From: Sphingobium cloacae
Lineage (GTDB): Bacteria; Pseudomonadota; Alphaproteobacteria; Sphingomonadales; Sphingomonadaceae
DNA: 64,000 nt
Assembly: GCF_002355855.1 (NCBI RefSeq)
Contig: NZ_AP017655.1
Coordinates: forward strand, 2,607,001 to 2,671,000
Reading direction: 5' to 3'
The first letter of the stretch is position 1. The number at the start of each line of letters is the position of its first letter. Shown in pieces: positions 6,078 to 25,894 of this stretch. The notes below the pieces were generated by a model that was not told the DNA's origin, searched no databases, and was given only the letters and a program-made list of their open reading frames with translations. Made by a program: the position numbers and the translations under genes.

Positions 6078-6089
6078 GGGTCGGCGGCC

Positions 6090-10886: not shown

Positions 10887-11724
10887 GAACCTATACACCT
10901 GTTTGATATTATGAGATAAATATCCTGTCTCTGTGAGTTTGTGCAGGAGAGAGTATGTCACGCCATCTGTTTTGGCTGTCGGATGAGGCAGGGTTAGCGA
11001 TTGAGCCACATCTGCCGCATGGCAAAGCTGGCAAGCCGAGAGTTGACGATCGAACGGTGATTTCGGGCATCCTGCACGTGCTCAAGACAGGCTGCCGCTG
11101 GCGCGACGTACCCGCCGCTTATGGGCCGCCCACAACGATCTATAACCGCTACAACCGCTGGTCTCAGCGGCGCATCTGGCAGCGCCTTTTCGAGAAGGTC
11201 GCGGCATCGGGGCCTGTGCCGAAAGAACTGTCGATAGATAGCAGCCACGTCAAAGCCCACCGTTCGGCGGCAGGCTCAAAAAGGGGGAGTATGAAGAAGC
11301 GGTCGGTCGCTCACGGGGCGGCAGGACGTGCAAGATCCACTGCCTGGCCGACGATCGCGGCCGACCGGTCGCCATCACCCTGACACCCGGCAACATCGCA
11401 GACATCAGCATCGCCATTCCGCTACTCGGTACGGTCGCTCCACCAAGGCGTCTCCTCGCCGACAAAGCCTATGACGCCGACAGCTTGCGCAACTGGCTGA
11501 CCGCCCGAAACGTCAAAGCCGTGATCCCTTCAACTGCTTCGCGCCGAACACCATATCCTCTCGACCGGCGTATCTATCGAAGGAGAAACGTCATCGAGAG
11601 GCTCTTCGGACGCCTCAAAAACTGGCGGCGCATCGCCACCAGATATGACCGACACGCCCAAAACTATCTCGCCGCTATCGCTCTCGTCGCCGTCGTCGCA
11701 GAGTGGAGCAAATGAGTCCCCAAC
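10881..11724 (+). mobile_element. IS5-family (IS427-like) insertion sequence, about 844 bp
   Basis: The element is bounded by CTA at 10878-10880 and 11725-11727, a 3-base target duplication typical of IS5/IS427 elements. The ends form imperfect inverted repeats: left GTTGAGAACCTATAC from 10882, right (reverse complement) GTTGGGGACTCATTT from 11724. It carries one frameshifted transposase and interrupts a type IV coupling protein gene that is in frame when the IS is removed. Confidence 0.8.
10955..11715 (+). CDS. IS5-family transposase made by -1 frameshift (two frames)
   Basis: Frame A (10955-11383) begins MSRHLFWLSDEAGLAIEPHL and carries the N-terminal DUF4096-type domain (DDRTVISGILHVLKTGCRWRD) and the first catalytic Asp (SIDSSHVKAHR). 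At the A5G5 run (11278-11287) a -1 slip enters the frame giving KKGEYEEAVGRSRGGRTCKIH and continues to 11715, with LLADKAYDADSLR (second Asp) and RNVIERLFGRLKNWRRIATRYD (catalytic Glu). Together these form a DDE transposase of about 253 residues. The frameshift is the normal expression mode in the IS427 group, so the copy may be intact. Without slippage only an inactive N-terminal product ending at 11383 is made. Confidence 0.8.
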
Positions 11725-11727
11725 CTA

Positions 11728-12207
11728 GTGATGGACACCGAGGTCACCAACCTGCCGAACTTCTCCGGCTTTCTCCGTTTCGGCCGCAATCTCCCGGTCC
11801 TGCGCTTCTCGGACACGTTCAACGAGATCCGGACATTGTGTGCCGCCTTCATCGAGCGCACCGATCCCCCGAAACGGCTCCCGGCGGGCAAGGACATCAT
11901 CACCCATGTTCGCGCCGCCGCCCAGGCGCGGGCCGCTGCGCAATCGGGTGCGGCCAACCCGCCGCCACCTGAGAAGCCACGGCCAACCAATCAGCCCGAC
12001 CTGTTCGAGCCTGGCAATCCCCTACCGGAACCGGCCGAACAGCCGCCGCCGGCGAGCCCCGATCCGTTCGAGCCTAAAGAAGGCGGCGTGCTGTCCGGGG
12101 GTGAAGGCTCCGATACCCCGGTCGAAGCCAGCGCGCCGGTGCCGTTCCTGGGAGCGGCGCGCGGGCGGATGTCGGGTTTATCTCCGAATGATGGGAAGAT
12201 GAGATGA
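11728..12207 (+). pseudogene. Type IV coupling protein, C-terminal part right of the IS
   Basis: Continues the fragment at 10587-10886 with TNLPNFSGFLRFGRNLPVLR and FIERTDPPKRLPAGKDIITHV, the end of the ATPase core. A Pro-rich disordered tail of about 80 residues follows. A GTG at 11728 could start translation but would give only a nonfunctional C-terminus. The stop overlaps the start of the lytic transglycosylase gene (12204), showing the original operon order. Confidence 0.7.
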
Positions 12208-12725
12208 GATCCCGCGCGATTGTCGCGGGGGCGCTGGCGTGCCTTCTCGCCTTTAGCCCGGCGATCGCGTCCGCCAAAGGGACAGCCGCCGCGGAAAACG
12301 AGATCGGCCACTGTATTCGTCAGGCTGCCAAGGGTCGGGTTTGGCTTGAGAAGACCTTGTGGGGCCTGCGCAGACAGGAGGCCGGATGGCTCGGAGCGGA
12401 AGTCGCCAACACCAACGGGACTCACGATCTCGGGCCGCTTCAGATCAATAGCTGGTGGGTGCCCCGGATCGCACGCCTGGTCGAACGTCCCGAACATCAG
12501 GTCCGGCACTGGCTTCGCTATGATGCCTGTTTCAATGCCGAAGCGGCGCGCTGGATATTCCTGTCGGGGTTGCAGGCGACCGGCGACTATTGGAAGGCCG
12601 TCGGCGTCTATCATAGTCCAACGGGCTGGCGGCAGCGCGCCTATGCGGCGAAGGTGGCAAACCACATGCGTCGGCAGTTTGGGGCCGCCGCTTTCTCCCA
12701 GTATAGCCGAAGCGACAATCGATGA
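12204..12725 (+). CDS. Conjugation lytic transglycosylase (TrbN/VirB1-like)
   Basis: A 173-residue protein with a signal peptide (residues 1-24, ending AIASA) and a lysozyme-like SLT domain. The catalytic Glu sits in LRRQEAGW, followed by the substrate-groove motif DLGPLQINSWW and a terminal YAAKVANHMRRQ helix. Enzymes of this type open peptidoglycan for assembly of a conjugative type IV secretion channel. The start overlaps the coupling-protein stop by four bases, which supports a conjugation role over a general autolysin role. Confidence 0.75.
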   Translation: MRSRAIVAGALACLLAFSPAIASAKGTAAAENEIGHCIRQAAKGRVWLEKTLWGLRRQEAGWLGAEVANTNGTHDLGPLQINSWWVPRIARLVERPEHQVRHWLRYDACFNAEAARWIFLSGLQATGDYWKAVGVYHSPTGWRQRAYAAKVANHMRRQFGAAAFSQYSRSDNR

Positions 12726-12790
12726 CCGGGCCGCGCGTTCGATGTAGTGAAGTCGCGCCTTGATGGCGTGAATCACTATGTTGAAAGGCG

Positions 12791-13651
12791 GTGCGCGTGT
12801 TCGAACCTGCGCCAATAGTGCTGCGGCGGGATCCGAACGGCCTGCTTCGCCCAGATTTGCGCGAGATGCTGCACGCCCTCTTGGATGCGGCTGGCAGCAA
12901 TGTTATCGAGCCGGTCGCGGAAATGCCGGACCCTTCGCCCGCTGATGCGTTCGGGGATTTGATGGCCGGGGCGCGATCGTTCGAGCTGGCGCCAGGCGTC
13001 CTGCTGGCGGATCACCTCTGGGATCATGCCGGTGACTATCGGCGCGGCGCCCTGGCCGAACGCCTTCGGGCGACGGCCGAACAGCGAGGCAAGCATCTTC
13101 CGGGCTTCCTGGCGGTCTATGCCACCAGTATTCGAACGCCCTTGGCCTATGGACCGCACCGCATGCCGCTTCGTGTGGCCGAGGACATTGCTGTGCCGGC
13201 GGGGATCGGCGGACCCTATCTGGTTCTCGTGTCCTGTCGGCTTTTGCCGAACCACAGGGCTGAAGCGGTTTGCGGCTTTGCCCAACCCATCCTGAGCGGT
13301 CGCGGGTTCGTGCCGGTATTCTCCGACCTGGAACGGGATATATTCGAAGGCCTGATCGGGCTTCAGGTCGCCCTCGATGCACATGGCCTGGACTGCACGA
13401 TCACGCGCGTCCTGCCTCCTGCCTCGTCCATGGCCGAGCACGACATTCATGTCGCAATCGGCCGGGGTGACGTAGTCGTCCGTGAGTTACGGCTTGCGGT
13501 CAGGGCTGACTGTGCGGCCAGTGATGACGCTGCCGATAGCCACGGGTCCGTTTATGTCATCAAGTCAGACAACTGGGTGAGCGGCGACTTCCTCAGATGG
13601 CTGGAACAAGCAATTCTCGGGAAAAAAATGGCCGATTTCCCGTTAGGTTAG
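12791..13651 (+). CDS. Conserved-looking hypothetical protein of the conjugative block
   Basis: A 286-residue protein from a GTG start with a GAAAGG site close upstream. The family is not recognised. There is no signal peptide or membrane segment. The middle (about 85-200) holds hydrophobic strands such as GPYLVLVSCRLLP and GLIGLQVALDAHGLDCTITRVLP, suggesting an alpha/beta fold. The C-terminus contains VYVIKSDNWVSGDFLRWLEQ. It follows the transglycosylase by 65 bases, with an imperfect dyad at 12745-12778 between them. GC content and codon use resemble the flanking conjugation genes. Confidence 0.5.
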   Translation: MRVFEPAPIVLRRDPNGLLRPDLREMLHALLDAAGSNVIEPVAEMPDPSPADAFGDLMAGARSFELAPGVLLADHLWDHAGDYRRGALAERLRATAEQRGKHLPGFLAVYATSIRTPLAYGPHRMPLRVAEDIAVPAGIGGPYLVLVSCRLLPNHRAEAVCGFAQPILSGRGFVPVFSDLERDIFEGLIGLQVALDAHGLDCTITRVLPPASSMAEHDIHVAIGRGDVVVRELRLAVRADCAASDDAADSHGSVYVIKSDNWVSGDFLRWLEQAILGKKMADFPLG

Positions 13652-13794
13652 TCGACTGGCTGCGAACGCGCGACTACATCCTTAACACGCCGGGCGTTGC
13701 GGCAAGGACATGACTCGTTTAGGTTGTTAAGAATGGATCGCAATAACTCCAGCGAATCGACGATGCGGAGGTGCGGCATCGAAGAAGGCAGGGC

Positions 13795-14307
13795 ATGCTG
13801 GATCAGGGCAAAGCATTGCGGGTTTATCAGGAGCAGCACGCGCGGCTTCTGAACTGCGCATCGCGAATCCTGGGCGATGCCGTCCGCGCCGAAGATATCG
13901 TCCATGATGCATGGATCGCGGTTACCGCGCGTATCGGCGACGAAGATGTACGCGAATTTGGCGGCTATCTTTACTCGACCGTCCGGAATCTCGCGATCGA
14001 CGCCCTGCGGCGGGAGCGCAAATATGACGAGATCGCGGGCGGCAATTTCGAGGCGGCGGCCGTCAACGTGCCCGACGCTAGCCCGCCGGTCGATGTGTGG
14101 ATCGCCGACGCGCAGGAACTGGATCGCTTCAGGCAGGCCTTGGCGCGGCTGCCCGAGCGACAACGCATCGCGGTCGAGATGCACCGCGTCGGCAATTTCA
14201 AGCTGCGCGATATCGCAGGCCGGCTTGGCGTTTCGGTCGGTTACGCGCAGGAACTGGTGATGAAGGGTATCGCGTTCTGCGCGGAATATCTGGAAGAGGG
14301 GCATTAA
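13795..14307 (+). CDS. FecI-like ECF sigma factor (module 2)
   Basis: A 170-residue ECF sigma factor starting MLDQGKALRVYQEQHARLLN; a longer frame from 13771 adds only a basic stretch. Region 2 has RAEDIVHDAWIAVTAR and YLYSTVRNLAIDALRRERK. Region 4 has LPERQRIAVEMHRVGNFKLR and IAGRLGVSVGYAQELVMKG. It heads module 2 and presumably reads the two matching promoters at 14342-14366 and 15492-15516. Similarity to the module 1 sigma factor is visible only in the core motifs, so the two modules are not a recent duplication. Confidence 0.88.
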   Translation: MLDQGKALRVYQEQHARLLNCASRILGDAVRAEDIVHDAWIAVTARIGDEDVREFGGYLYSTVRNLAIDALRRERKYDEIAGGNFEAAAVNVPDASPPVDVWIADAQELDRFRQALARLPERQRIAVEMHRVGNFKLRDIAGRLGVSVGYAQELVMKGIAFCAEYLEEGH

Positions 14308-14341
14308 AGGCGGTGCAGTGCGCTGAAACGAAGACGATAGC

Positions 14342-14366
14342 TGAAAAATCGAGTGCCCATCCGTCT
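14342..14366 (+). promoter_or_regulatory. Candidate ECF promoter upstream of the module 2 fecR
   Basis: TGAA at 14342 and CCGTCT ending at 14366 span 25 bases, the same span as 15492-15516 before the receptor. Downstream, TATGAGGG is also shared. The layout fits FecI-type promoters (an A-rich GAA -35 and a GTCT -10). It supports starting fecR at 14443 rather than 14353, which lies inside the promoter. Confidence 0.55.
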
Positions 14367-14442
14367 TCCTTGTATGAGGGATTTGAAACCAACGGCGCCG
14401 ATAGGACCGACCTGGTGGCGGTTGCGGCCGGGACGGCCTTCG

Positions 14443-15456
14443 ATGGCGTCTGACCGCAAGCGGGCACTGCTCGAGGCCGCCGACTGGTATACGCGCATCA
14501 TCGAAGGCGACGATCCGGACCTCGATGGCCGTTTCCACGATTGGCTCGATGCCGATCCTCTCCATGCCGAGTCCTGGAGAGACATCCTGCGAACAGGCAG
14601 GAGCCTTGCCCGGCTCGAACCGACGACAAGCGCGCAGTGGGTGCAGGGTAGGGCGGCGCCGGCCGGCGAGGCTCGCGCGGCCCCGCCGCCGCGCCGGCGG
14701 GCGGGGCGCCGTTTCTCGCTGAGCCCGTCGCGTCTGCCGTTCAACGGGAAACGCCTGCTGGCCGGCGCGGCGGCGGCTTGCGCGGTCTTCGCGTTCGCAC
14801 CCGACGCGATCATCTGGTGGCAGGCCGATCAGACCAGCAGGGCCGGCGAGGTCCGCGCGCTCGCCCTGGCCGACGGCACCAAGGTCGATCTCGGACCGGC
14901 CAGCGCGATCGCCATCGACTATGAGGGCGGTCGCCGCAATGTGCGCCTGCTCGCGGGGCAGGCCTGGTTCGAGGTCGCGCATGATCCGGCCAGACCCTTT
15001 CGCGTCGAGTCCGACAATGCCCGCGTGACCGTACTGGGCACCGGCTTCGATGTCCGCATGACCGGCGGCGCCACCGATGTGAGCGTTGCGCATGGTCGTG
15101 TGCGCCTGGAAAGCCTGCCGGACACGAAACAGACGCGCGAGCTGACCGCCGGAGAATGGGCCAGCATCGCCCCCGACGTCCGTGAGCGTCACGGCGCCGC
15201 TTCGGTCCCTTTGCTCGGCTTGTGGCGCCGTGGCGAGCTGGTCGCGCGCGGCGAGACTCTGGGCAATGTGATCGAGCAGATCCGCCCTTGGTATCGCGGG
15301 CGCATCCTTGTTCTCGACTCCAGCCTCGCGGCCGTGCCGGTTACCGGCATCTTCAAGGCAAGCGATCCTCTGCGCGCCATCTGCAACCTGGTCGAGCCGC
15401 ATGGCGGCCGCGTCGCCACAGTGACGCCCTGGCTGATCGTCGTCACCAAGGGCTGA
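14443..15456 (+). CDS. FecR-family anti-sigma factor (module 2)
   Basis: A 337-residue regulator starting MASDRKRALLEAADWYTRII. The DUF4880-type cytoplasmic domain (residues 1-50) has DWLDADPLHAESWRD. An Arg-rich segment and a membrane helix (about 104-120, LLAGAAAACAVFAFAP) follow. The FecR domain has VRALALADGTKVDLGPASAIAIDY and VLGTGFDVRM, and a C-terminal region contains VIEQIRPWYRGRILVLD, where the receptor STN domain is expected to bind. It lies between the sigma factor and receptor genes, each separated by a promoter-sized gap of about 130 bases. Confidence 0.87.
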   Translation: MASDRKRALLEAADWYTRIIEGDDPDLDGRFHDWLDADPLHAESWRDILRTGRSLARLEPTTSAQWVQGRAAPAGEARAAPPPRRRAGRRFSLSPSRLPFNGKRLLAGAAAACAVFAFAPDAIIWWQADQTSRAGEVRALALADGTKVDLGPASAIAIDYEGGRRNVRLLAGQAWFEVAHDPARPFRVESDNARVTVLGTGFDVRMTGGATDVSVAHGRVRLESLPDTKQTRELTAGEWASIAPDVRERHGAASVPLLGLWRRGELVARGETLGNVIEQIRPWYRGRILVLDSSLAAVPVTGIFKASDPLRAICNLVEPHGGRVATVTPWLIVVTKG

Positions 15457-15491
15457 TTTCCGCGTCGCGAGAAAAATTTCTTCCGATCGCC

Positions 15492-15516
15492 TGAATCTCC
15501 GAAGCGCCACCCGTCT
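15492..15516 (+). promoter_or_regulatory. Candidate ECF promoter upstream of the module 2 receptor
   Basis: TGAA at 15492 and CCGTCT ending at 15516 have exactly the spacing seen at 14342-14366. TATGAGGG follows four to six bases later in both. The predicted transcript would have a 5' leader of about 60 bases before the TTG start at 15587. Confidence 0.55.
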
Positions 15517-15586
15517 CTTTTTATGAGGGGTGTAGTTCTTGCAACGCATTAGCAAGAATGTCCCCTTTCGTGCAAAGGAGACTGAC

Positions 15587-18343
15587 TTGAATCTCGGGGG
15601 ACATCACACGCGCGGCCGTCGCCGCCACGCAGCTTATATAGGGGCCTTGTTGATCACGAGCGCGCTTGCCGGCTTCGCGCCGCAGCCGGTCCTGGCGCAG
15701 ACATCTTCCGCGACGCAGCGCAGCTATGCGATCCCGGCACAACCGCTCGCAGATGCCCTGGCAGCGTTCGGGCATCAGTCCGGCCTCGATGTCTCGGCCA
15801 GTCCCTCGGTCACCAATGGCAAGACCTCCACGGCTGTGGCCGGCGATCTGTCGTCGAGCGAGGCGCTCGGCCAGCTGCTGGCCGGCACCGGCCTGACCTT
15901 CCGCTTCGTCAGCGCGACCGGCGTGACGATCGAGCCCGCGCCGCAGGCAGCCGAGGGTTCGGTCACGCTCGGCCCTGTCCGGGTGCAGGGCGAAGGATCG
16001 GGTCGCGGAGGCGGCACGGTACGGCAGCCGGCCGACACGCGCGGCACCTACACCGTTCCCGTTACCAGCAGCGCCACCAAGCTGGATCTGGCCATCAAGG
16101 ACACGCCGCAGGTGGTCAACGTCATAACCCGCCAGCGGATCGAGGATCAGAACCTTACCCAGGTTGCGGATGTGATCGCGCAGGCGCCAGGCATCTCCGT
16201 CATGCAGCAGGGCGTGCCCGGCGCGGGGCGCATCCAATATTACTCGCGCGGCTTTCCCGTCACAAACGTCATGCTTGACGGTGTCGTCACGACGGGTGCG
16301 GGCAACCGCGACTTCGACCTTTGGAGCGTTCTCGACACGGCGATCTATGACCGGGTGGAATTCGTGCAGGGCTCGACCGGTTTGGCCACGGGTGCCGGCG
16401 ATCCTAGCGCCAGCGTTAACTTCGTACGCAAGCGGCCGACAGAGGAACTGCTTGCGGAAGCTAAACTGCACTATGGCAGTTGGGAGCGCATTCGGGGCGA
16501 GGTCGACCTTTCTTCTCCGCTCAACGGCGCCGGCACGCTGCGGGGACGTGTCGTCGGTGCCTATCAGCAAGGCGATACCTGGCAGGACCGCGTGAAGTCG
16601 AAGACGGGTACGCTTTACGGAATCGTGGAAGCCGATCCGACCGAGAATCTGATGCTCACCGCTGGCCTGCTGTGGACCAAGATTCGGGTCGATGATGCGG
16701 TGCCGTTCGGCATGAATCCGGCAGGAAACCTCGGACCGGGAGGCAATCCGTTCCCGATCATCAGTCTCGGACGCAGCTTCAATCCCGCGACGCAATGGAC
16801 GTACGCCGAGATCGAAATGCTGAATCCCTTTGCTAAAGCGGAGTGGCGTTTCGCCGAAGATTGGCGGCTCAATGTGGGCTACATGTTCAGCAAGATCAGC
16901 CAGGACCGCATGTATGGCGGCATCGGGCAATATTTCTACGACCCGACAGCCAATACGGCCAGCTACTCCTACGGTCGGGTCAACGTTGATGGACGTATCC
17001 ATAACGTCGATGCTTCGATCACCGGAAAATTCCATTTGTTCGGCCGCGAGCATGACGTTGTGGCCGGTTTCAGCGGATACTGGGGCACGATGAACAACCC
17101 GATGTATATGGCCATCGGAACAGGCGCTGCCCCGTCAACCATCGCGATTAGCGGGTGGAACAATGGCAATCAGCCGCTTCCCACCATGGGATCACCCGAA
17201 CTGATCCCAGGCACCGGCATTCCCAATCCGTTCGACGATCTGATGAATGACGTCGGCGCGATCAGCCAGCTGAAGGAAAAGCAATATGCTGGCTATTTCG
17301 GTGCAAGGCTTCGGCCTGTCGACCATGTGTCGCTGGTTTTCGGCGGACGTCTGAACCGCTGGGAGCGCAGCGGACGCATGTGGGTGCCGGATCTTGAGTC
17401 GGTGATCACGCCACCTTTCGAACTGAAATTGGTGCCTCAAGACCTCAACACCTATTCCTCGAAAGTGAGCGGAAAGTTCACGCCTTATGCCGGTGTTGTT
17501 TTCGCCGCGACACCGAACATCACGGCCTATGTCAGCTATGCAGGTATCGAGCGCGCCAATATCGATTGGGAAACCGGAACGTGGTTCGAAGACTTCGAAG
17601 GAAATCCGCTGCCGCCCGTCAGAGGCAACACTATTGAGATCGGAGCCAAAGCTGCGGTATTCGACGGACGCCTCAACATTCAGCTTGCGGCATATCGCAT
17701 GAAACAGAGAAACCTTGCGGACACCTTCAGTGAAGAGGCCCGTCAGGCGGCCATCGCTGCGGGAGGGTGTCCACCCGGGCCGAATCCCCTCAACATTGCA
17801 GGTATCGGGCGATACTGCGCCATTCCTGGCAAGGGCTACGTATCCAAAGGTATCGACTTCAGCCTCTCAGGCCAACTCACGCCGAGAGTCAATCTGAGCG
17901 CAAGCTACAGCTACCTTCATTCCAAGCGCGCAGAAACCGGATATCAGAGTTGCTCCGGCTTTGGTGCCAGCGGCGGCGGCGACGCCAGTACAGGCAGCTA
18001 CGGAGGCGGGGCGGGCTTTCCATGTCCCGAACACACGGTGAAGCTGTTCGGAACGTATCAGGCAACTGACGATCTCACGCTGGGCGGCGGGGCGATCTGG
18101 AAGAGCGCGACCAAGAGTTCTTATCCCAACGGCGTTGGGGGGCTGCATCCTGACGCTATACGCGACCAAGGCAGCTACGCAGTGGTCGACCTAATGGCAC
18201 GCTATCGCCTCAACCGCCGGATTACGATCAGCGCCAATATCTACAACCTGTTCGATGAAACATATCTGAGCAGTTCCGATGGCCTTGGTGGCTTTTGGGG
18301 CGCGCCCCGCAATGTGATGTTTTCCCTAGGATTTCGATACTGA
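15587..18343 (+). CDS. TonB-dependent receptor with STN signalling domain (module 2)
   Basis: A 918-residue outer-membrane receptor. TTG 15587 is chosen because AAAGGAG lies seven bases upstream and a signal peptide ending PVLAQ follows; the earlier TTG (15539) has no such site. Domains: STN (about 42-120, YAIPAQPLADALAAFGHQSG), plug (about 155-290, KDTPQVVNVITRQRIEDQ, YYSRGFPVTNVMLDGV, VQGSTGLATGAGDPSASVNF), and a barrel ending SLGFRY. The plug resembles FhuE/FpvA-type siderophore receptors. It lies 82 bases before the secreted Slam cargo and is the obvious partner for whatever that protein binds. A Cys pair (GGCPPGPN, GRYCAIPG) and a second pair (YQSCSGFG, GFPCPEH) sit in predicted outer loops. 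Confidence 0.9.
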   Translation: MNLGGHHTRGRRRHAAYIGALLITSALAGFAPQPVLAQTSSATQRSYAIPAQPLADALAAFGHQSGLDVSASPSVTNGKTSTAVAGDLSSSEALGQLLAGTGLTFRFVSATGVTIEPAPQAAEGSVTLGPVRVQGEGSGRGGGTVRQPADTRGTYTVPVTSSATKLDLAIKDTPQVVNVITRQRIEDQNLTQVADVIAQAPGISVMQQGVPGAGRIQYYSRGFPVTNVMLDGVVTTGAGNRDFDLWSVLDTAIYDRVEFVQGSTGLATGAGDPSASVNFVRKRPTEELLAEAKLHYGSWERIRGEVDLSSPLNGAGTLRGRVVGAYQQGDTWQDRVKSKTGTLYGIVEADPTENLMLTAGLLWTKIRVDDAVPFGMNPAGNLGPGGNPFPIISLGRSFNPATQWTYAEIEMLNPFAKAEWRFAEDWRLNVGYMFSKISQDRMYGGIGQYFYDPTANTASYSYGRVNVDGRIHNVDASITGKFHLFGREHDVVAGFSGYWGTMNNPMYMAIGTGAAPSTIAISGWNNGNQPLPTMGSPELIPGTGIPNPFDDLMNDVGAISQLKEKQYAGYFGARLRPVDHVSLVFGGRLNRWERSGRMWVPDLESVITPPFELKLVPQDLNTYSSKVSGKFTPYAGVVFAATPNITAYVSYAGIERANIDWETGTWFEDFEGNPLPPVRGNTIEIGAKAAVFDGRLNIQLAAYRMKQRNLADTFSEEARQAAIAAGGCPPGPNPLNIAGIGRYCAIPGKGYVSKGIDFSLSGQLTPRVNLSASYSYLHSKRAETGYQSCSGFGASGGGDASTGSYGGGAGFPCPEHTVKLFGTYQATDDLTLGGGAIWKSATKSSYPNGVGGLHPDAIRDQGSYAVVDLMARYRLNRRITISANIYNLFDETYLSSSDGLGGFWGAPRNVMFSLGFRY

Positions 18344-18425
18344 TTATTTAGAAAGAAGGAGAAGTCAGCAATTGTCAAACGAAGCACAACCAAATTCATA
18401 ACTTGGCAACTGAAAGGATCATTCA

Positions 18426-19202
18426 ATGCGTTCGATTCTCTTTGCGACAATTTCCGCTGCGGCGATTCTCATTCCGTCAGCCGTGCAAGCGCAAACCTTT
18501 TCCGGCTCTACTACGAGCTTCCCCGCGACCTTCACTTTTAACGGGAGCGTCTATCAAGGCACGACCGACGGATTGCTCGGTGGTCCAGCAGGCTGGGGGC
18601 CGAATAATACTGTGAATCTGACTGTCCTGCCTCTCAACACGCACGTCTATGATAAGCCCCCTGTTGACACGCGGTATACCTTTTACCGTCAGCCGTATTC
18701 AGTCGTCATCGGCAATATGAAGCAGACGACGGGCGGCAATTATTACTACATCCGCGATATCGTCGGCCACATCACGCCGACGAGCGGTGTTCCCACGAGC
18801 GGCACTGTCACCTACACCGGTCGCACGGTATGGCATGATCTCGACCTGGCAGCCTCCAACCGTGAAGGTGATTTCAGCTATACCATCAACTTCAGCGGAA
18901 CGCCGACCGGCTCCGGATCGATCAGCAACCTGCGCGGCGGAAGCGGCTTCCTCGCCTGGACCGGGAGCGGCACGCTCGCGTCCCACGCGATCCAATATGA
19001 TGCTGCCGACGGCACCTGGGGCGTGAAAGGCGGCACCGGCACGTTCAGCATCAGCAATCCGATCGTCGCAGCCGGATACGGGCTGTCGTCAGCCACGCCG
19101 ACTTACGACCTCGCGCTGTTTGGTCCCAATGCGCAGGAAGTTGCGGGCGTCATCAAGATCAATGCCCAGGTCGGCAGCCTCGGCATCGCCGGCAAGCAGT
19201 AA
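18426..19202 (+). CDS. Secreted TbpB-like beta-barrel protein, probable Slam (type XI) cargo
   Basis: A 258-residue exported protein. Signal peptide MRSILFATISAAAILIPSAV..QAQ is type I: no lipobox Cys, so the protein is predicted soluble rather than lipid-anchored. The mature chain is rich in Gly, Thr, Ser and Tyr with alternating strands (GTVTYTGRTVWHDLDLAA, GDFSYTINFSGTPTGSGS). It ends in a small barrel with DLALFGPNAQEVAGVIKI, the signature of TbpB/HpuA-like barrels (F-x-G-P-x-A-x-E-x-x-G). This domain order matches hemophilin-type Slam substrates. A Slam gene follows directly and a receptor precedes it. The ligand (heme, ferri-siderophore or other metallophore) is not evident. Ribosome-binding site GAAAGGAT; a strong hairpin follows the stop. 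Confidence 0.72.
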   Translation: MRSILFATISAAAILIPSAVQAQTFSGSTTSFPATFTFNGSVYQGTTDGLLGGPAGWGPNNTVNLTVLPLNTHVYDKPPVDTRYTFYRQPYSVVIGNMKQTTGGNYYYIRDIVGHITPTSGVPTSGTVTYTGRTVWHDLDLAASNREGDFSYTINFSGTPTGSGSISNLRGGSGFLAWTGSGTLASHAIQYDAADGTWGVKGGTGTFSISNPIVAAGYGLSSATPTYDLALFGPNAQEVAGVIKINAQVGSLGIAGKQ

Positions 19203-19212
19203 GCAAGTCTCT

Positions 19213-19245
19213 GGCCATTCCCCGAGAGCCGGGGAATGGCCTTTT
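19213..19245 (+). terminator. Intrinsic terminator between cargo and Slam genes
   Basis: A 12-bp perfect stem (GGCCATTCCCCG at 19213-19224 paired with 19230-19241), a 5-base loop and TTTT. It lies 11 bases after the cargo stop and 17 bases before the slam start, so it should lower slam expression relative to cargo. Confidence 0.75.
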
Positions 19246-19261
19246 GCTGGATATCATCTGG

Positions 19262-20737
19262 ATGCATAAGTTCTTTGTTGGGCATCATTGGCTGCTGCTT
19301 GCCATTTTCTTTCATATCCCGGCCGAAGGACTGGCTCAAACCGTGATCCGGCCCCCTGACGATGGTGTCCTGCAGGTGCCGGATGTGCCCATCGACGTTC
19401 CGAAAATAGGGAATCCAGCGGAAGCTTTGAAGCAAGGCCAACCAGCAACACGGGCGGACGAGCCCGTCCAACTGGAAGATGAGGATTTGAAAGCCAACTC
19501 CGAACTCGCCAGTTTTATACTCGGCAAGAGCGTCCAGGCTGCGGACTGGGCGACCGTTCGGCGTGTGCTTGCCTATTACACCGGCATTCCAGGCCATGAC
19601 CCGCTGCTGGCGCTTTACGCCCGCGGAGCGCTGGATCGCCACGATGGACGCCACGGCCGCGCGATCACCGCCTATCGACAGATGCTCAGAGCGGATGGGA
19701 GCCTGAACTATGTCCAACTCGATCTGGCGGCGATGTTGTTCGAGGACAAACAATTGACGGAAGCCAGGACCCTTTTCGAGCTATTGAGGCGCGACTCCGA
19801 CCTTGTCCCGACCGCCCAGCAGGCCATCGATCAATATCTCGCGGCGATCAGGAAACAGAATAAATGGAATGGAACAGTCCGCCTGGGGTACAAATACAAC
19901 GACAATGTCAACAACGCTTCGGCCGACCGCTACATTTATCTTTTCGGTCTTCGTTTCGACAAAGATCCCGCAAGCCTGCCCCGCTCGGCCAACGCAATCA
20001 GTTATTTGGCGAACCTGAACCGCGATTTCAATCTTTCCGGCAACCACTATCTAAGCGTGGACGGCACAATCGAAGGTGACCGTTATTGGGATGACCATGC
20101 ATGGAGCGAGACGAACGCGACGCTTCGGCTCGGGTATCAGTATCGCAATCTCAAATCCTGGTTCTCGGTTATGCCGAGTTTCGGTGAAACATGGCTTGGC
20201 GGTGATCCTTTTCGCAGAACGGTTGGAGCGAGCATCGAATATGGCCGATGGGTTACGCCCAAGTGGCAGGTGATCGGCAATTATTCCTACTTCAACAAGC
20301 GGTATAGCGGCCTCTACACCATCTATGACGGCGATCTCCATGCCCTCTCAGCAACCGCCGTCTATTTTGCATCGCCCCAAACGATCCTCTATGGTGGAGT
20401 CACCGTTCAGCGCGACATGCTGGAGACGAAATATGAAGCCTCCGCGCGCGACGGCGCAAGCCTGGGCTTCATCAAGCAGTGGAACGGCGGCTTCAATGTC
20501 CGCGGGAACGTGCGATACAGCTTTCGCAAGTTTCGCGACTACAGCCTTTGGGACACGGCGAAGCTGCGTCGCGACCATGAATACCAATTTGATCTCAGCG
20601 CGATGCATAGCAAGCTCCGCTTCGCGGATGTCTATCCCCGGCTGAGCTATCAGCATCTGAGGGTCGATAGCAGCATCTCCTCGCTCTACTCGCGCACGGG
20701 CAACCAGTTCACCCTTTCTCTCGAGACGAGCTTTTGA
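19262..20737 (+). CDS. Surface lipoprotein assembly modifier (Slam), type XI outer-membrane translocator
   Basis: A 491-residue protein; ATG 19262 gives MHKFFVGHHWLLLAIFFHIP and a cleavage site near EGLAQ. A periplasmic helical TPR-like domain (about 55-205) has WATVRRVLAYYTGIPGHDPLL and AITAYRQMLRADGSLNYVQL. An outer-membrane barrel (about 210-491) starts with WNGTVRLGYKYNDNVNNAS, the conserved entry of the Slam/DUF560 barrel, and ends LSLETSF with a terminal Phe. Slam proteins move TbpB-like substrates across the outer membrane; the adjacent gene at 18426 encodes a fitting substrate. The stop is followed by tonB in 14 bases, with the TonB ribosome-binding site overlapping the slam stop. Confidence 0.85.
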   Translation: MHKFFVGHHWLLLAIFFHIPAEGLAQTVIRPPDDGVLQVPDVPIDVPKIGNPAEALKQGQPATRADEPVQLEDEDLKANSELASFILGKSVQAADWATVRRVLAYYTGIPGHDPLLALYARGALDRHDGRHGRAITAYRQMLRADGSLNYVQLDLAAMLFEDKQLTEARTLFELLRRDSDLVPTAQQAIDQYLAAIRKQNKWNGTVRLGYKYNDNVNNASADRYIYLFGLRFDKDPASLPRSANAISYLANLNRDFNLSGNHYLSVDGTIEGDRYWDDHAWSETNATLRLGYQYRNLKSWFSVMPSFGETWLGGDPFRRTVGASIEYGRWVTPKWQVIGNYSYFNKRYSGLYTIYDGDLHALSATAVYFASPQTILYGGVTVQRDMLETKYEASARDGASLGFIKQWNGGFNVRGNVRYSFRKFRDYSLWDTAKLRRDHEYQFDLSAMHSKLRFADVYPRLSYQHLRVDSSISSLYSRTGNQFTLSLETSF

Positions 20738-20751
20738 AGGAGCGCGCGACG

Positions 20752-21618
20752 ATGGCTTACAGAGCACCGCTCGCGACCGATGGTGATTGGCCTCCAGGCG
20801 ATCGAGAAACCGGTTTGCCAGCCCTGGATGGGCCGCGCAATGAGCCGCCACCGTCCTGGCCGGCGTCGACCGGCGGGCGGGCAGTCGGCTTCCTCCATTC
20901 CGTCAGGATGGAACCGGCTCCCTTCCGCTACGCGGATCGGCCGATGCCCCTCGGAACGCGGCTGTTCGGCCTGGGCGGCACCACTCTTGTTTGTGCGCTT
21001 GTTCTGGCCGCCGCCCTGTTCAAATGGGTCGGTGCGACGCCGGTGATTGTGCCGACGACGTTGAGTGTGTTCGACGTCGCCGAGCCCGAAGCCCCGCCCG
21101 CGCCCGACACCGAAATCCCGCCTGGCCCTGAGCAGGTGCAGAAGGAGAAGCCACAGGTAGAGGTCGTGAAGACACCGCCGCCTCCGCTGGTCCAGGTGCC
21201 GAGCGCGAGCAGCGTTGCCGCACCACCCAAGGCTGTGCCAGTGGATGATCCCGGCCCGCCTGTCGACCAGACCACCGCACCGCAGTCCTCGCCCAAGCCG
21301 CCCGGCGCCAAGTCGAGCGATGCGAAGCCGACATGGGAGGGCCAGGTTCTCGCCGCGCTCAATGCCGCCAAGCGCTATCCCCTCGAGGCGAAGCGCAACC
21401 GCCAACAGGGCATGCCGTGGGTCCGCTTCACGATAGACCGTGACGGCCGGGTGCGTTCGGCGCGGATCGCGCGGTCGAGCGGCTTCGATGCGCTGGACCG
21501 CGAGGCGGAGGCGCTACCCTTGCGTGCCTCGCCGCTCCCCAAGCCGCCCGAGAGCGTCAAAGGCGACCGCATCGAGCTGACGGTCCCGATCGAGTTCTTC
21601 TTGGCCGGAGGCGGATGA
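20752..21618 (+). CDS. tonB: TonB energy-transducing protein (module 2)
   Basis: A 288-residue TonB. A cytoplasmic N-terminal extension of about 65 residues precedes the membrane anchor (about 73-95, LFGLGGTTLVCALVLAAALF). A long Pro-rich spacer (about 105-190) and a C-terminal domain with KRYPLEAKRNRQQGMPWVRF, TIDRDGRV and RSSGFDALDREAEALP follow. ATG 20752 follows GAAGGAG, which straddles the slam stop. It should energise the receptor at 15587-18343. It resembles the module 1 TonB in the C-terminal domain but not in the extension or spacer. Confidence 0.9.
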   Translation: MAYRAPLATDGDWPPGDRETGLPALDGPRNEPPPSWPASTGGRAVGFLHSVRMEPAPFRYADRPMPLGTRLFGLGGTTLVCALVLAAALFKWVGATPVIVPTTLSVFDVAEPEAPPAPDTEIPPGPEQVQKEKPQVEVVKTPPPPLVQVPSASSVAAPPKAVPVDDPGPPVDQTTAPQSSPKPPGAKSSDAKPTWEGQVLAALNAAKRYPLEAKRNRQQGMPWVRFTIDRDGRVRSARIARSSGFDALDREAEALPLRASPLPKPPESVKGDRIELTVPIEFFLAGGG

Positions 21619-22052
21619 TGGTGACGACGATGGCGCTCAAGCGCCGCAGCCTTGTCGAGCGCAAAGTTCTGGCGCTCCTGCGGGGAGAAGAGATTGCCGC
21701 GCAGCCCAACGGGAAGGTACGACCGAGCCGGACCCGAGCGGCGGCGGGGCCGACACGGGCACAGGCGCGCCACTTCGTTGAACTGCGCGGTCATGCCGCC
21801 TACAACGGCTTCACCATCCTTCCAGCGGGCGCGCCCTATATCGGCGTGGACGAACTGGGTCTGTTGGCCTGGCTGGCATCCGCGCAACGCCTCCATGCTC
21901 CCGACCCAGCTCCCGGGGCTGATCCCGTCCTGCGCGCGGCGGTGCTGCATTGCGCCGGCTTGCTCGACGAGATGGGGCTGCGCCTCTCGATGCTCACGAC
22001 CTGCGGCGCGCGCACTCCCAGGCCGATGGTCCTGAAGGATCGGGCCGCATGA
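21615..22052 (+). CDS. Hypothetical protein in the module 2 operon
   Basis: A 145-residue protein whose ATG overlaps the tonB stop (ATGA). The family is not named with confidence. The N-terminus is basic (ALKRRSLVERKVLALLRGEE) and there is no signal or membrane segment. The C-terminal half contains YIGVDELGLLAWLASAQRLH and two Cys (LHCAGLLDEMG, LTTCGARTP). Small proteins of this size between tonB and processing enzymes occur in other sphingomonad receptor operons (recalled pattern, unverified here). Tight coupling on both sides indicates a role in the same pathway. Confidence 0.6.
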   Translation: MMVTTMALKRRSLVERKVLALLRGEEIAAQPNGKVRPSRTRAAAGPTRAQARHFVELRGHAAYNGFTILPAGAPYIGVDELGLLAWLASAQRLHAPDPAPGADPVLRAAVLHCAGLLDEMGLRLSMLTTCGARTPRPMVLKDRAA

Positions 22053-22984
22053 TGCTCCGCACGATCGTCGCGAGTATCCGCACCGCTGCGTTCGGCAGGA
22101 AGCGGCAAGCGCTCCATGACCGGGCAACCGCCCGGCACGGCCTGCTGGAGCCGGTCGGGTCCGGCTTGGCGATACCCGACATCCAGCAATATACCGCGCG
22201 GGGTGCCAACGGGGACTATACGATCTTCGTCACCCTGCCGAGCGGCCCGCCGCCCGGAGCCGGCTATCCGGTCCTGACACTGCTCGACGGCAATGCCTGG
22301 ATCGCCGGCGCGGCCGAAGCGCTACGCTGGCAGAGCCGATTCGCAATCCAGAGCGAAATCGAACCGATGATCGTCGTCGCGGTCGGCTATCCCGGCGAAG
22401 CGCCGTTCGATCTTGGCCGCCGGGCCTATGATTTCCTTCCCGACCATTCGTCGGGCAAGCTGTCGGAGCGCTTCATGCAGGGCGCGCCCTGGCACCAACC
22501 TGGCGGGGCCGATGCATTCCTGGACTTTCTGAAAGGTCCGCTCCGCGACGATCTCGCCGAGCGCTATCCGGTCGATCGATCGCGGCAGATCCTGTGCGGG
22601 CACAGCTTCGGCGGCTTCTTCGCGCTCTATGCGCTGCTGCATCGGCCGGAGGCGTTCCGCCACTATGCCGCGCTCAGCCCTTCGCTGTGGTGGGATGACG
22701 GGCGGCTCCTGAAGGACGCCGAGGCCGCAATCGCTGCCATGCCGCGCGACCTTGTGACGGATATTCTCATCGCCGTCGGCGAGCGCGAGACGCCGGAGCG
22801 CCCGAAGATCAGCGCGCGAATGCTGGATGACTCCGCCGCCTTCGTCGACAGGCTGGAGCGCGAGAGACTCGCGGGCGTGTCGGTCGACTATCGCGTGTTG
22901 GCCGGTGAAAACCATCAGTCCCTGCTCACGGCGGCTTTCTCCGCCGTGCTGCGCTTTGCGACCATGAACGGAGGCCAGGCATGA
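22049..22984 (+). CDS. Fes/IroE-like esterase, probable siderophore hydrolase
   Basis: A 311-residue alpha/beta hydrolase of the putative-esterase (PF00756) type. ATG 22049 overlaps the previous stop (ATGA); the frame upstream of it is out of context. Visible features are VLTLLDGNAWIAGAAEALRW (core strand and DGN motif), IVVAVGYPG, the nucleophile elbow GHSFGGFFALYALLHRPEAF, ALSPSLWWDDG and the catalytic His in GENHQSLLTAAF. Family members cleave ferric-catecholate or related esters to release iron. No clear signal peptide is visible, so it is probably cytoplasmic, like Fes. Its stop overlaps the siderophore-interacting reductase start. Confidence 0.82.
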   Translation: MMLRTIVASIRTAAFGRKRQALHDRATARHGLLEPVGSGLAIPDIQQYTARGANGDYTIFVTLPSGPPPGAGYPVLTLLDGNAWIAGAAEALRWQSRFAIQSEIEPMIVVAVGYPGEAPFDLGRRAYDFLPDHSSGKLSERFMQGAPWHQPGGADAFLDFLKGPLRDDLAERYPVDRSRQILCGHSFGGFFALYALLHRPEAFRHYAALSPSLWWDDGRLLKDAEAAIAAMPRDLVTDILIAVGERETPERPKISARMLDDSAAFVDRLERERLAGVSVDYRVLAGENHQSLLTAAFSAVLRFATMNGGQA

Positions 22985-23796
22985 AGCGGCGTATCCGCGC
23001 CTGGATTGAGCGCCTGTTTCATTCTCGTATCGAGGAATGCACGCTGCTGCGCGTGGTCGAGACAAACCGGATCACGCCGCATATGTTGCGCGTGGCCTTC
23101 ATCGGACGCGATCTCGAACCCTTTGCCACGAACGAGAACCTGCACGTCAAGCTGCTGCTCCCGCCCCAGGGCGCGGCGCGCGACCACTGGCTGAAGGAAG
23201 AACCCGGCGGCAAGGTGCGTCTCAAGGGCCGCAATCTCGATCCGGTGTTCCGTAAATACACCATTCGCTCGATCGATGCCGGGGTCGGGCGCGTGGCGAT
23301 CGACTTCGTTTGCCATGAGGACGGCGGCCCCGGCGCGGCCTGGGCGGCGGCGGCCAAGCCCGGCGACGTCGTCGGCATGATCGGCCCCGGCGGGCGCTCC
23401 GCCGCTCCCGCCGACTGGGTTCTGCTCGCAGGTGACGAAACCGGGCTGCCGGCGATCGGCCGCATCCTCGAAAGCCTGTCCGGCGACGCCAGGGGGCTGG
23501 CACTGGTCGAGATCGACGGACCAGAGGAGGAACAGCCGCTCTCCGCGCCGCCGGGCGTCGAGCTGCGCTGGCTGCACCGTCAGAGAGCGCTCGCAGGCAC
23601 CACCGATCTGCTGGCCGATGCGGTAAAGGCCGTGTCGCTGCCCGGCGATGGGACGCGCTTCGCCTGGGTCGCGGGAGAGTTTGCCGCCATCCAGGCGATC
23701 CGGCGGCATCTGCGCGCCACCGGCCTCGGCAAGCAGGAGCAACTTGTGGTCGCCTATTGGCGGCGCGACGAAGCCGAGGCGCGAGGAACGGGATGA
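22981..23796 (+). CDS. Siderophore-interacting protein (ferric-siderophore reductase)
   Basis: A 271-residue flavoprotein of the SIP/ViuB family. The N-terminal FAD-binding domain (about 20-140) has TPHMLRVAFIGRDLEPF and the flavin motif FRKYTIRSID. The NAD(P)H domain has DWVLLAGDETGLPAIGRIL and FAWVAGEFAAIQAIRRHLR, and it ends VVAYWRRDEAE. It reduces ferric siderophore in the cytoplasm so iron is released. Its position after the Fes-like esterase suggests hydrolysis and reduction act together on an imported ferri-siderophore. It overlaps both neighbours by four bases. Confidence 0.9.
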   Translation: MKRRIRAWIERLFHSRIEECTLLRVVETNRITPHMLRVAFIGRDLEPFATNENLHVKLLLPPQGAARDHWLKEEPGGKVRLKGRNLDPVFRKYTIRSIDAGVGRVAIDFVCHEDGGPGAAWAAAAKPGDVVGMIGPGGRSAAPADWVLLAGDETGLPAIGRILESLSGDARGLALVEIDGPEEEQPLSAPPGVELRWLHRQRALAGTTDLLADAVKAVSLPGDGTRFAWVAGEFAAIQAIRRHLRATGLGKQEQLVVAYWRRDEAEARGTG

Positions 23797-24500
23797 TGCA
23801 GCGCCGCGTATTCCTTCATTCCCTCACGGCTGCCGCCATTTTTGGGCTGGCCGTCCCGGCGCGGGCGGCGAGCGGATGGGACTTGCTGACCGAGGCGGCC
23901 TACAGGTCGCCCTCAACAGCGCGGGCACGGGTCTTGCTGTCGCAGGCGCGAACCGACGCGGCGGCGGCGCTGCGCCAGAACCCGGCAAACCAGGAAGCGG
24001 CCATCCAGCAGGCCGTGGCGGCGGCCTGGGGCGCGATGCTCTCCGGCGGCATCGGTCCAGCTCGCGAGGCGCGACGGTTGATTCAGGCGCAAATCACGGC
24101 CCAGCCGAACAACGCCGAAGCGCATCTTGCCATGGGCGCATGGCACATCGAGGCGGTGCGGCGCGTCGGGATGCTGGCCGGGCCGACCGTCGGCGCCAGC
24201 CGGAAAGCGGGCAATGCCGCGCTCGATCGCGCCATTGCACTGGGCGGTCGGCGCGCTCTGCCTTCAGCCTATGCCACGCTGTTGCGAGCCGCGTCTGGCG
24301 AAGGCAAGTGCCAGAACGGCCGCGCGGCCGTTCTGGCACTTGCCCGCCGGGCCGCGCAAGGCACGGCCCCGACCAGCCTCGATGCAGTGATGCGGGCCAG
24401 CGCACAGCGGTTCGTCGTTACCGTTGCGGCGCCGAGTGCGAACGCGGCCGATGCGGCGGCGCCGCTGCTGCCCTTCGCCCATCTCTCCGGTAAAAGCTGA
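23793..24500 (+). CDS. Exported TPR-like protein with Tat-like signal
   Basis: A 235-residue protein from ATG 23793, overlapping the SIP stop. The N-terminus MMQRRVFLHSLTAAAIFGLA with cleavage near ARAAS resembles a Tat signal with a twin Arg (RRVFLHS). The mature part is helical, Ala-rich and TPR-like: repeats of the type ARVLLSQARTDAAAALRQNP and AQITAQPNNAEAHLAMGAWH. This predicts a periplasmic binding or scaffold protein. A perfect 42-bp palindrome lies within codons at 24304-24345. No enzymatic motif is seen. Confidence 0.65.
   Translation: MMQRRVFLHSLTAAAIFGLAVPARAASGWDLLTEAAYRSPSTARARVLLSQARTDAAAALRQNPANQEAAIQQAVAAAWGAMLSGGIGPAREARRLIQAQITAQPNNAEAHLAMGAWHIEAVRRVGMLAGPTVGASRKAGNAALDRAIALGGRRALPSAYATLLRAASGEGKCQNGRAAVLALARRAAQGTAPTSLDAVMRASAQRFVVTVAAPSANAADAAAPLLPFAHLSGKS
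24304..24345. repeat. Perfect 42-bp palindrome inside a coding region
   Basis: Two exact 21-base arms meet at 24324/24325 with no spacer; the left arm begins GGCAAGTGCCAGAACGG. It lies in frame in the TPR-like gene and encodes GKCQNGRAAVLALA on the plus strand; the minus strand encodes the same peptide. It follows no stop codon and has no T run. Confidence 0.9.
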
Positions 24501-24718
24501 TGGGTGGAGTTGTCATGCTGTGCGGGCGCGTCGTTCTTATGGCCCTGGTGGCGATCGGCGGGATCGTGGGGATGCTGCTCGCCGAGGGCGCATGGGACTG
24601 GCTGTTCCTTACGCTTGCCTCTCTGCCTCTGCTGATCGGCGGATCGGCGCTGGCCGCGCGCAAGCTCCGGGGAGCAATCCCCGACAGTCGCGATGATTAT
24701 CCTGCCCGTGGCTCCTAA
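24500..24718 (+). CDS. Small two-helix membrane protein (module 2)
   Basis: A 72-residue protein whose ATG shares one base with the preceding stop (TGATG). Two hydrophobic helices are visible, VVLMALVAIGGIVGMLLAEG and WLFLTLASLPLLIGGSALAA, followed by a basic tail. The next gene, the PepSY protein, starts three bases after its stop. It probably works in the inner membrane beside PepSY. The family is not recognised. Met6 is an alternative start. Confidence 0.6.
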   Translation: MGGVVMLCGRVVLMALVAIGGIVGMLLAEGAWDWLFLTLASLPLLIGGSALAARKLRGAIPDSRDDYPARGS

Positions 24719-24721
24719 CCG

Positions 24722-25894
24722 ATGGCGGGGCGCACGAAAATGCAGATGAACGCGCCCGCCAAGGCACCCTCGCGCTGGTATCGGGCGAACCTGTGGCTGC
24801 ACCGCTGGGCGAGCCTCGTCGCGACGCTTCCGTTCCTAGTCCTGTGCCTGACCGGCACGGTGCTGATCTTCCACGAGGAGATCGACGCGGCGATGGGCAT
24901 GCTTCCGCCCGCGCCGGGATTGAGCGCCGAGCATCGGCCGCTGGCGGAATCGGTCGACGCGGCGCTCGCGGCCCATCCAGATGAAAAGGTGGCGCTGGTC
25001 GGCATCGACCCCGGCGATCATTCGGGGCTACTGTTAGTCGCGACGGTTCCCAATGGCGATACCGGCTTCGATCGCACGACGCTGCGCTTCGCGCACCTCG
25101 CCACCGGCAAGCTTGTGCCCGAGAACTTCAGTGAGGGCGAGACGCTGACCGGCTTCCTGCTCGAACTCCACGCACAGTGGTTCATGGGGCCGATCGGTGA
25201 GTTGATCGGCGCTCTGGTCGCGCTGCTGGTGCTGTTGTCGCTGGTCTCGGGCCTTGTCGTCTATGCACCCCATGCACGAAGGGTCGCCTTCGGGGCGTTC
25301 CGGCGCGGACGCGGACCGAGGCTGCTTCAGCTCGACCTGCATAACTTCATTGGTGTGATCGTGCTTGGCTGGGGCCTCGCGGTGACGCTCACCGGCTTTC
25401 TGCTCGGCTTCGGCACCCTGGCCACCGGTCTGTGGGCGCAGAGCGAGCTGGGCCAGGCGCAGCGGACTTTTGTCGGGGCGCCCGTCGATCCGCGCCGCCC
25501 CCCGGTGGACGCCGATGCCGTGGCACGGGCCGCGCTGGCGGCCGCGCCGGAAGGCTGGCGGGTCGGCAACATCTTCTGGCCCGGCACCGACTTCTCGACG
25601 CCCCACCACTACACCGTGTTGATTCATGGCGAGGGGCTGGACGAGCGCCTGTTCCGGGCCGTGCTGGTCAATGCCGAGCGGGGCGATGCCGCCGCCGTGG
25701 CCGAGATGCCCTGGTATATGAAGGCGATCATTCTCTCGCAGCCGCTGCATTTCGGGGACTATGGCGGGTTGCCGCTCAAGCTGCTGTGGACTGCCTGCAC
25801 TTGGCTGACCCTGTTCATCACGGGGAACGGCGCCTGGCTCTGGTGGGACCGCAGGCGCAAGCGGCGGCGCACGCCGATGGAGGCGGCGGCATGA
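24722..25894 (+). CDS. PepSY-domain iron-uptake membrane protein (module 2)
   Basis: A 390-residue PepSY-associated TM protein. TM1 (about 22-45) carries LWLHRWASLVATLPFLVLCL. A PepSY region follows, then TM2 (about 158-180, LIGALVALLVLLSLVSGLVV), TM3 after the conserved LLQLDLHNFIGVIVLGWGL (the H-N-F version of the usual H-x-x-x-G), and TM4 near 355-375 (WTACTWLTLFITGNGAWLWW), ending in a basic tail. It may support periplasmic or membrane reduction of ferri-siderophores. It is the counterpart of the gene at 4824-6077 but only loosely similar. Confidence 0.85.
   Translation: MAGRTKMQMNAPAKAPSRWYRANLWLHRWASLVATLPFLVLCLTGTVLIFHEEIDAAMGMLPPAPGLSAEHRPLAESVDAALAAHPDEKVALVGIDPGDHSGLLLVATVPNGDTGFDRTTLRFAHLATGKLVPENFSEGETLTGFLLELHAQWFMGPIGELIGALVALLVLLSLVSGLVVYAPHARRVAFGAFRRGRGPRLLQLDLHNFIGVIVLGWGLAVTLTGFLLGFGTLATGLWAQSELGQAQRTFVGAPVDPRRPPVDADAVARAALAAAPEGWRVGNIFWPGTDFSTPHHYTVLIHGEGLDERLFRAVLVNAERGDAAAVAEMPWYMKAIILSQPLHFGDYGGLPLKLLWTACTWLTLFITGNGAWLWWDRRRKRRRTPMEAAA

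Follow-up and report, generated by a model that had tools for sequence, protein, structure and literature searches.

We analyzed a 64,000-nucleotide stretch of the genome of Sphingobium cloacae, a soil-type bacterium (contig NZ_AP017655.1, positions 2,607,001 to 2,671,000; here called the window), in which genes for a type XI secretion system (T11SS) stand among genes for iron uptake. A single run on the + strand encodes, in order, an extracytoplasmic function (ECF) sigma factor, FecR, a TonB-dependent receptor with an STN domain, a cargo protein, the outer membrane protein Slam, TonB, an esterase, and a siderophore reductase. An initial annotation made from the sequence had placed a Slam unit, its cargo, and the gene for a signaling receptor at 15587 to 20737 and had read them as a type XI unit with a lipobox-free cargo beside a signaling TonB receptor. 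Domain searches confirmed the genes, and the family and domain matches supported the reading of them as such a unit.

The receptor (15587 to 18343, +) is of the FpvA/FauA/FhuE type. Its STN, Plug, and TonB_dep_Rec domains all scored above the cutoff, and the protein passed the ferri-siderophore model TIGR01783 (TonB-siderophor) with 247.2 bits against a cutoff of 223.5. A sequence search of the PDB returned FpvA first (5.5e-87), followed by FauA (1.5e-79) and FhuE (1.6e-73). The nearest NCBIfam models were those for FauA and FhuE, although neither equivalog cutoff was reached (NF049960, 380.8 of 900 bits; NF007447, 326.4 of 666 bits). With the TonB-hemin model, the receptor reached only 84.7 of 316.85 bits. 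Its reading frame is open from 15539 to 18343. Since an AAGGAG at 15575 to 15580 precedes the TTG at 15587, the start originally annotated there is likely correct.

The next gene (18426 to 19202, +) encodes an fHbp-like T11SS cargo of 258 residues. By eye, it begins with a Sec-type signal (SAVQAQT), and the protein contains no Cys and thus no lipobox, in agreement with the earlier description of a type I signal lacking a lipobox Cys. The cargo passed PF08794 (FHBP_C) at 5.3e-13 (50.1 bits; cutoff, 28.1), matched TbpB_B_D only below the cutoff, and retrieved fHbp chains from the PDB at 1.1e-6. For its predicted structure, the fHbp fold ranked first, and the hemophore and TbpB folds came next. 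The TbpB-like C-terminal barrel on which the initial annotation depended is present in this model, but the nearest kin is fHbp, with HphA and TbpB behind it. Likewise, the motif DLALFGPNAQEVAGVIKI that had been given as the ending of the cargo is present but does not form the very end, as the protein terminates in VIKINAQVGSLGIAGKQ. The cargo is not factor H-binding protein proper, since it reached only 26.4 of 200 bits with the equivalog NF041466, and neither the HphA_N heme domain (PF22828) nor HphA_C gave a match at an E value of ≤1. In a multiple alignment, the DHS motif of the hemophores aligned to PYS in the window cargo, and no cargo His fell at the hemophore DHS or GPH positions, the alignment of the N terminus being unsure. 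For hemophilin HphA, two axial His residues are indicated by the H43A/H106A mutant named in PMC8560813.

Slam (19262 to 20737, +; residues numbered in the 497-residue frame from 19244) consists of a TPR domain and a barrel, as the initial annotation had proposed. PF24575 (TPR_Slam) matched residues 76 to 178 (7.6e-26; 91 bits; cutoff, 35.2), and the whole of PF04575 (SlipAM barrel) matched residues 208 to 497 (2.9e-56; 191.5 bits; cutoff, 22). These matches rule out an unrelated porin. A PDB sequence search with Slam gave no match. PF04575 matched no other protein in the host genome, and Slam adjoins the cargo with the TbpB/fHbp-type C-terminal barrel, which it would carry across the outer membrane.

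Farther downstream, two enzymes of siderophore use are encoded on the same strand. The IroE/BesA/PfeE-like siderophore esterase (21950 to 22984, with its true start probably near 22049) matched PF00756 at 6.1e-23 and, in the PDB, BES (6.8e-39), PfeE (2.2e-34), and a fungal triacetylfusarinine C esterase (2.8e-23). The siderophore-interacting FAD reductase (22981 to 23796) matched PF04954 (3.7e-37) and PF08021 (1.1e-29), and its PDB matches included 4yhb (9.3e-46) and ViuB (4.6e-29), with an iron-chelator utilization protein and siderophore-interacting proteins also among the nearest. Neither heme oxygenase nor DUF454 was among the typed genes of the run. IucA/IucC (PF04183) and the condensation domain of nonribosomal peptide synthetases (PF00668), the two routes covered, were absent from the host genome and positive in control genomes; thus, a siderophore ligand would most likely be a foreign one. 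The ligands of FauA, FhuE, and FpvA contain hydroxamates, while coprogen and fusarinines contain ester bonds. Because a receptor of the hydroxamate class here adjoins an ester hydrolase with the kin given above, ester-containing hydroxamates (coprogen, fusarinines) are weakly suggested as candidate ligands.

The same gene order is found in heme systems. Three sphingomonad loci (L062, plasmid pSA1 of Novosphingobium resinovorum; L090, from genome G186; and L093, from genome G249) have ECF-FecR-receptor-cargo-Slam in the order of the window, followed by TonB, heme oxygenase, and DUF454, whose arrangement differs among the loci. Their cargos matched HphA_N at 6.7e-34 to 1.5e-37 (117 to 129 bits), and the best model for their receptors was TonB-hemin (203 to 214 bits, below the cutoff of 316.85). 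Heme oxygenase and DUF454 were above the cutoff in all three loci. For the receptor STN domain, L062 and L090 passed the cutoff, and L093 scored 27.0 of 28.4 bits. By these domain matches, the three loci are complete hemO-type heme modules. The hemO cluster of A. baumannii is described with the order ECF sigma-anti-sigma-hphR-hphA-hsmA-TonB-heme oxygenase (PMC10483418), and the window resembles it in gene order, Slam-secreted cargo, ECF/anti-sigma pair, and TonB (PMC10483418, PMC8560813). The initial annotation had taken ECF/FecR control and an STN receptor as a departure from heme systems. This was not upheld, as these elements are also present in the three sphingomonad heme loci, and an ECF/anti-sigma pair belongs to the hemO cluster as given in PMC10483418. 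The differences lie instead in the ligand-specific parts. Compared to the hemO cluster, the window cargo is without the HphA heme domain, the receptor is of the siderophore type, and the esterase, the siderophore reductase, and a PepSY_TM protein occupy the place of heme oxygenase. The sphingomonad heme modules share the order from ECF to Slam and a downstream TonB with the window but have an HphA_N cargo, a receptor nearest to TonB-hemin, heme oxygenase, and DUF454. Because the ligand-specific parts are consistently unlike those for heme, the different ligand proposed in the initial annotation is the better reading. Since the order is shared by the hemO cluster and the three heme loci, the window would represent the hemO plan with its ligand-specific parts swapped.

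A genome scan with the cargo found one further locus, in Thauera sp. Sel9 (L002), with the order ECF, FecR, STN receptor, cargo, Slam, and alpha/beta hydrolase. Its receptor is FauA/FhuE-like and passed TIGR01783 at 272 bits. Identity between Sel9 and the window was 36% for the receptor, 39% for the C-terminal part of the cargo, and 35% for Slam but only 26% for ECF and 29% for FecR. The window ECF was closer to the ECFs of the three sphingomonad heme modules (36 to 38%), as was FecR to their FecRs (34 to 36%). In trees built from sequences already fetched, with outside receptors mostly from plasmids, the window and Sel9 formed a pair for both the receptor (16 rows; support, 100/100) and Slam (24 rows; support, 98/94). 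The Slam pair lies within a six-row group whose other four members (L060, L072, L073, and L140) adjoin cargos that seem lipidated by eye, and this group stands apart from the heme Slams, which themselves grouped at 100/100. As the receptor and Slam pair with those of Sel9 while ECF and FecR are distant, receptor-cargo-Slam looks like a co-inherited core.

Taken together, we give slightly better than an even chance to the interpretation that the window carries a hemO-type type XI secretion module respecialized from heme to a ferri-siderophore. In this model, Sec would export the cargo to the periplasmic side, and Slam would then pass it over the outer membrane. The free cargo would capture a ferri-siderophore, most likely a product of other microbes, and deliver it to the FpvA/FauA/FhuE-type receptor for import energized by TonB. 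The occupied receptor would signal through STN, FecR, and ECF to raise expression of its own operon, and inside the cell the reductase, the esterase, or both would free the iron.

Several observations weigh against this model. The siderophore form was found in only two instances, the window and Sel9, and the Sel9 cargo gene is split over two frames (L002, 8663 to 9447), so that it may be broken or contain a sequencing error; its pieces were used separately in our comparisons. By raw identity, the relationship to Sel9 is also not exclusive. Azospirillum receptors are as close to the window receptor (37% identity) as that of Sel9 (36%), and the Slam of an A. lwoffii plasmid is as close to the window Slam (36%) as the Sel9 protein (35%). 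In an incomplete gene table whose annotation extends beyond the receptor in each case, no Slam appears next to the related receptors of two Azospirillum records, Variovorax VAI-C, Neorhizobium, Paracoccus, and P. putida; the outside set also comprised a Diaphorobacter record ending nearby and three records without annotation. As for the cargo model, residues 6 to 61 are unreliably modeled and may hold the binding site, and the input alignment included fHbp-like and hemophore rows. Finally, the receptors that could be typed beside the cargo or Slam of other fHbp-like loci were of the heme or transferrin type in 5 of 5 loci (L078, L079, L081, L087, and L137), a result that favors a broad role in iron capture but not siderophores.

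Surveys of genomes, in which the host was counted in the sets around it and Sel9 in those around Thauera, indicate that the module is rare. The cargo protein had two matches in 398 genomes of the phylum (its own and G306) and none in plasmids or viral contigs. PF08794 gave 10 matches in 398 genomes of the phylum at an E value of ≤0.001 (7 above the cutoff), 3 in 150 genomes of the Thauera family (all above), and 12 in 300 genomes of the Thauera order (11 above). In 94 genomes of the host genus, it gave 5, with that of the host alone above the cutoff. The window Slam gave 27 matches in 313 alphaproteobacterial genomes, the next best scoring 74.5 versus 1,148 bits, and PF04575 gave 70 in 296 Sphingomonadales, the next best scoring 128 versus 193 bits. 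The Thauera Slam gave 6 matches in 29 Thauera genomes, a close one in Sel9 only, and the Sel9 genome held four further weak matches. So patchy a spread fits horizontal transfer of the module. Counting that of the window, 82 Slam places were listed, of which 40 others were fetched and 39 examined (L006, of 3.2 kb, was left out). The layout ECF-FecR-receptor-cargo-Slam recurred in 2 of these 39 loci, L090 and L093, both of the heme type. A wider receptor hidden Markov model (HMM) placed receptors in nine of the loci and directly ahead of the cargo in these two only.

Of the alternatives, the one with the most standing, which we still consider unlikely, is that the cargo has another partner (as an adhesin, a binder of some other protein, or a competitor defense) and has no tie to the iron receptor beyond a common operon. 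Binding of a host protein is what the fHbp class is best known for. Among 40 other PF08794 loci, which include several per genome (G399 and G947 are apparently one genome), none had a window-type receptor beside the cargo; the wider receptor HMM found a TonB receptor in 8 and none in 32. On an Erwinia plasmid, too, cargo and Slam are encoded, and the annotation shows no receptor close by. Against this, the receptor-cargo-Slam order is repeated in Thauera, the pairing of receptor and Slam is supported by the trees, and the cargo sits where hphA does in hemO clusters (PMC10483418). Within the same loci, the receptor of L086 lies far from the cargo, the cargo of L088 adjoins a weak receptor match, untyped and absent from the HMM results, and a FauA-like receptor of L144 (TIGR01783, 269.6 bits) is encoded on the opposite strand at a distance of about 5 kb, with genes intervening. 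L084 (3761 to 9921) has Slam, an fHbp-like cargo, and, two genes from them on the opposite strand, a receptor that leans toward FhuA and FoxA (TIGR01783, 198 of 223.5 bits), a possible third siderophore-linked case.

It is less probable again that the cargo carries no ligand and instead assists the receptor at the cell surface, tuning uptake or STN signaling. The STN domain and the ECF/FecR pair would suit such a role, and TbpB, a Slam cargo, acts as a co-receptor; however, a Cys-free cargo without a lipid anchor better fits a freely released carrier. Least probable of all is a heme system in disguise, with a divergent hemophore and a heme-transporting receptor, given a cargo unmatched by HphA_C and by the HphA_N domain that the three sphingomonad hemophores match so strongly, PYS aligned to DHS, a receptor that passes the siderophore model and falls far short of the hemin model, and a run lacking typed heme oxygenase and DUF454.

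The control genes of the run form a FecI/FecR-type surface signaling set with the receptor. The FecI-like ECF (13771 to 14307, +) matched PF04542 (6.4e-13) and PF08281 (2.5e-11), and the FecR anti-sigma/sensor (14353 to 15456, +) matched PF04773 (2e-22) and DUF4880 (3.5e-7). Between FecR and the receptor, a long leader hairpin (15513 to 15582, +) pairs with the receptor Shine-Dalgarno sequence at 15575 to 15580, which it would occlude. The leader (15457 to 15600) folds at −51 kcal/mol (z score, −3.45; 0 of 200 shuffles as stable). The hairpin contains the palindrome TTCTTGC-N9-GCAAGAA (15536 to 15558), which is suggestive of a candidate iron regulator site. TTGC-N9-GCAA has one match in the window, which is exact, against an expectation of 1.52 with one mismatch allowed. 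Across 919 kb, made up of the window and 47 sphingomonad loci, there were five exact matches compared to 0 to 4 in 10 Markov controls. Of the four matches outside the window, three coincide with or immediately precede ECF genes (L062, L090, and L220, the last overlapping the predicted ECF start), and that of L106 does not. A Fur box-like palindrome also lies upstream of the Sel9 ECF. An Rfam scan over 8000 to 27000, leader hairpin included, gave nothing at the gathering threshold. A promoter consensus scan over 13500 to 26000 found none, and no ECF promoter was convincing by eye.

A second structure occupies the gap between the cargo stop and the Slam start, where a 12-bp GC-rich perfect hairpin with a TTTT tail (19213 to 19241, +) resembles an attenuator. 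The segment from 19200 to 19262 has a dG of −29.2 (z score, −3.57; 1 of 200 shuffles as stable). A terminator scan included this hairpin but gave 8 sites in the region versus 8.6 expected. Folded without shuffle controls, this gap also shows hairpins in L062, L087, L060, and L061 and, more weakly, in Thauera, with no clear hairpin in L090 or L093. The hairpin may keep the cargo in excess over the pore.

The remaining genes of the + strand run encode TonB (20734 to 21618; PF03544, 2e-14), a 145-residue protein without a family (21615 to 22052; no Pfam or NCBIfam match at an E value of ≤1), a 247-residue protein starting at 23757 (no Pfam match at an E value of ≤0.01), and the PepSY_TM inner membrane protein (24722 to 25894; PF03929, 8.5e-50). 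A second signaling siderophore cluster lies on the − strand at 4070 to 10302, with ECF (9802 to 10302), FecR (8682 to 9683), an STN receptor nearest to the FhuA and FoxA models (6090 to 8594), PepSY_TM (4824 to 6077), and TonB (4070 to 4837). Together with the main module, it looks like a siderophore use island. A piece of an IS4/5-type transposase (PF13340; 10955 to 11383) separates the two clusters. Downstream of the module are a TraG-like gene (28063 to 31806, −) and the gene for a large serine recombinase directly next to tRNA-Glu (32912 to 34545; tRNA-Glu, 34470 to 34545); these are mobile element remains. No element ends were found around this stretch. The 3′ end of tRNA-Glu recurs as a 17-base copy approximately 58 kb upstream of the window, but this copy was rejected because it is inverted and thus does not form a simple attachment site pair.

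Pairing of Slam with receptors is known in general (120 of 185 clusters; PMC5449769), and T11SS subcluster 1C is made up mostly of environmental Sphingomonadaceae (PMC8406197). The fHbp-like T11SS group comprises 54 lipoproteins and 285 soluble proteins (Grossman 2025; PMC12282271). The window cargo resembles this group in its FHBP_C barrel, its slam gene neighbor, and, as in the soluble members, the lack of a lipobox; the group is named by domain, without a ligand or receptor in the main-text section, whereas the receptor and iron release genes of the window point to a siderophore (PMC12282271). Neisserial fHbp is a lipoprotein, unlike the window cargo, which is lipobox free and below the fHbp equivalog cutoff. 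No pairing of a Slam cargo with a siderophore appeared in the titles or abstract beginnings among the matches listed from open PMC literature, with subscription papers and supplements outside that scope. One paper, PMC12918729, contained both “surface lipoprotein assembly modifier” and “siderophore.” The main texts of PMC12282271 and PMC5449769 do not use the word “siderophore,” and PMC8406197 has it once, within a reference. Thus, the kind of unit is known, while the siderophore variant looks new.

In independent support of the model, fHbp has been described as a binder of ferric enterobactin (PMC4189776, citing Veggi 2012). We tentatively propose, at somewhat less than an even chance, that type XI secretion exports dedicated proteobacterial siderophore binders, that such fHbp-like “siderophore-phores” feed signaling receptors of the FpvA/FauA/FhuE type, and that siderophore binding by fHbp in vitro reflects an old role of the fold. 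With its fHbp-like cargo naturally paired to a siderophore receptor, the module offers a clean test, in a nonpathogen, of siderophore carriage by this fold and bears on the reason for ferric enterobactin binding by fHbp in vitro. The module also bears on how receptor, cargo, and Slam change jointly under constant gene order and regulation. In Bacteroides XusAB, a surface siderophore binder likewise passes its ligand to a TonB receptor; XusB is a Bacteroidota lipoprotein, Slam is unmentioned in the abstract, and the comparison with the window is by function only (PMC13142918). If our model is true, the module would parallel, in Proteobacteria, the iron piracy of XusAB.

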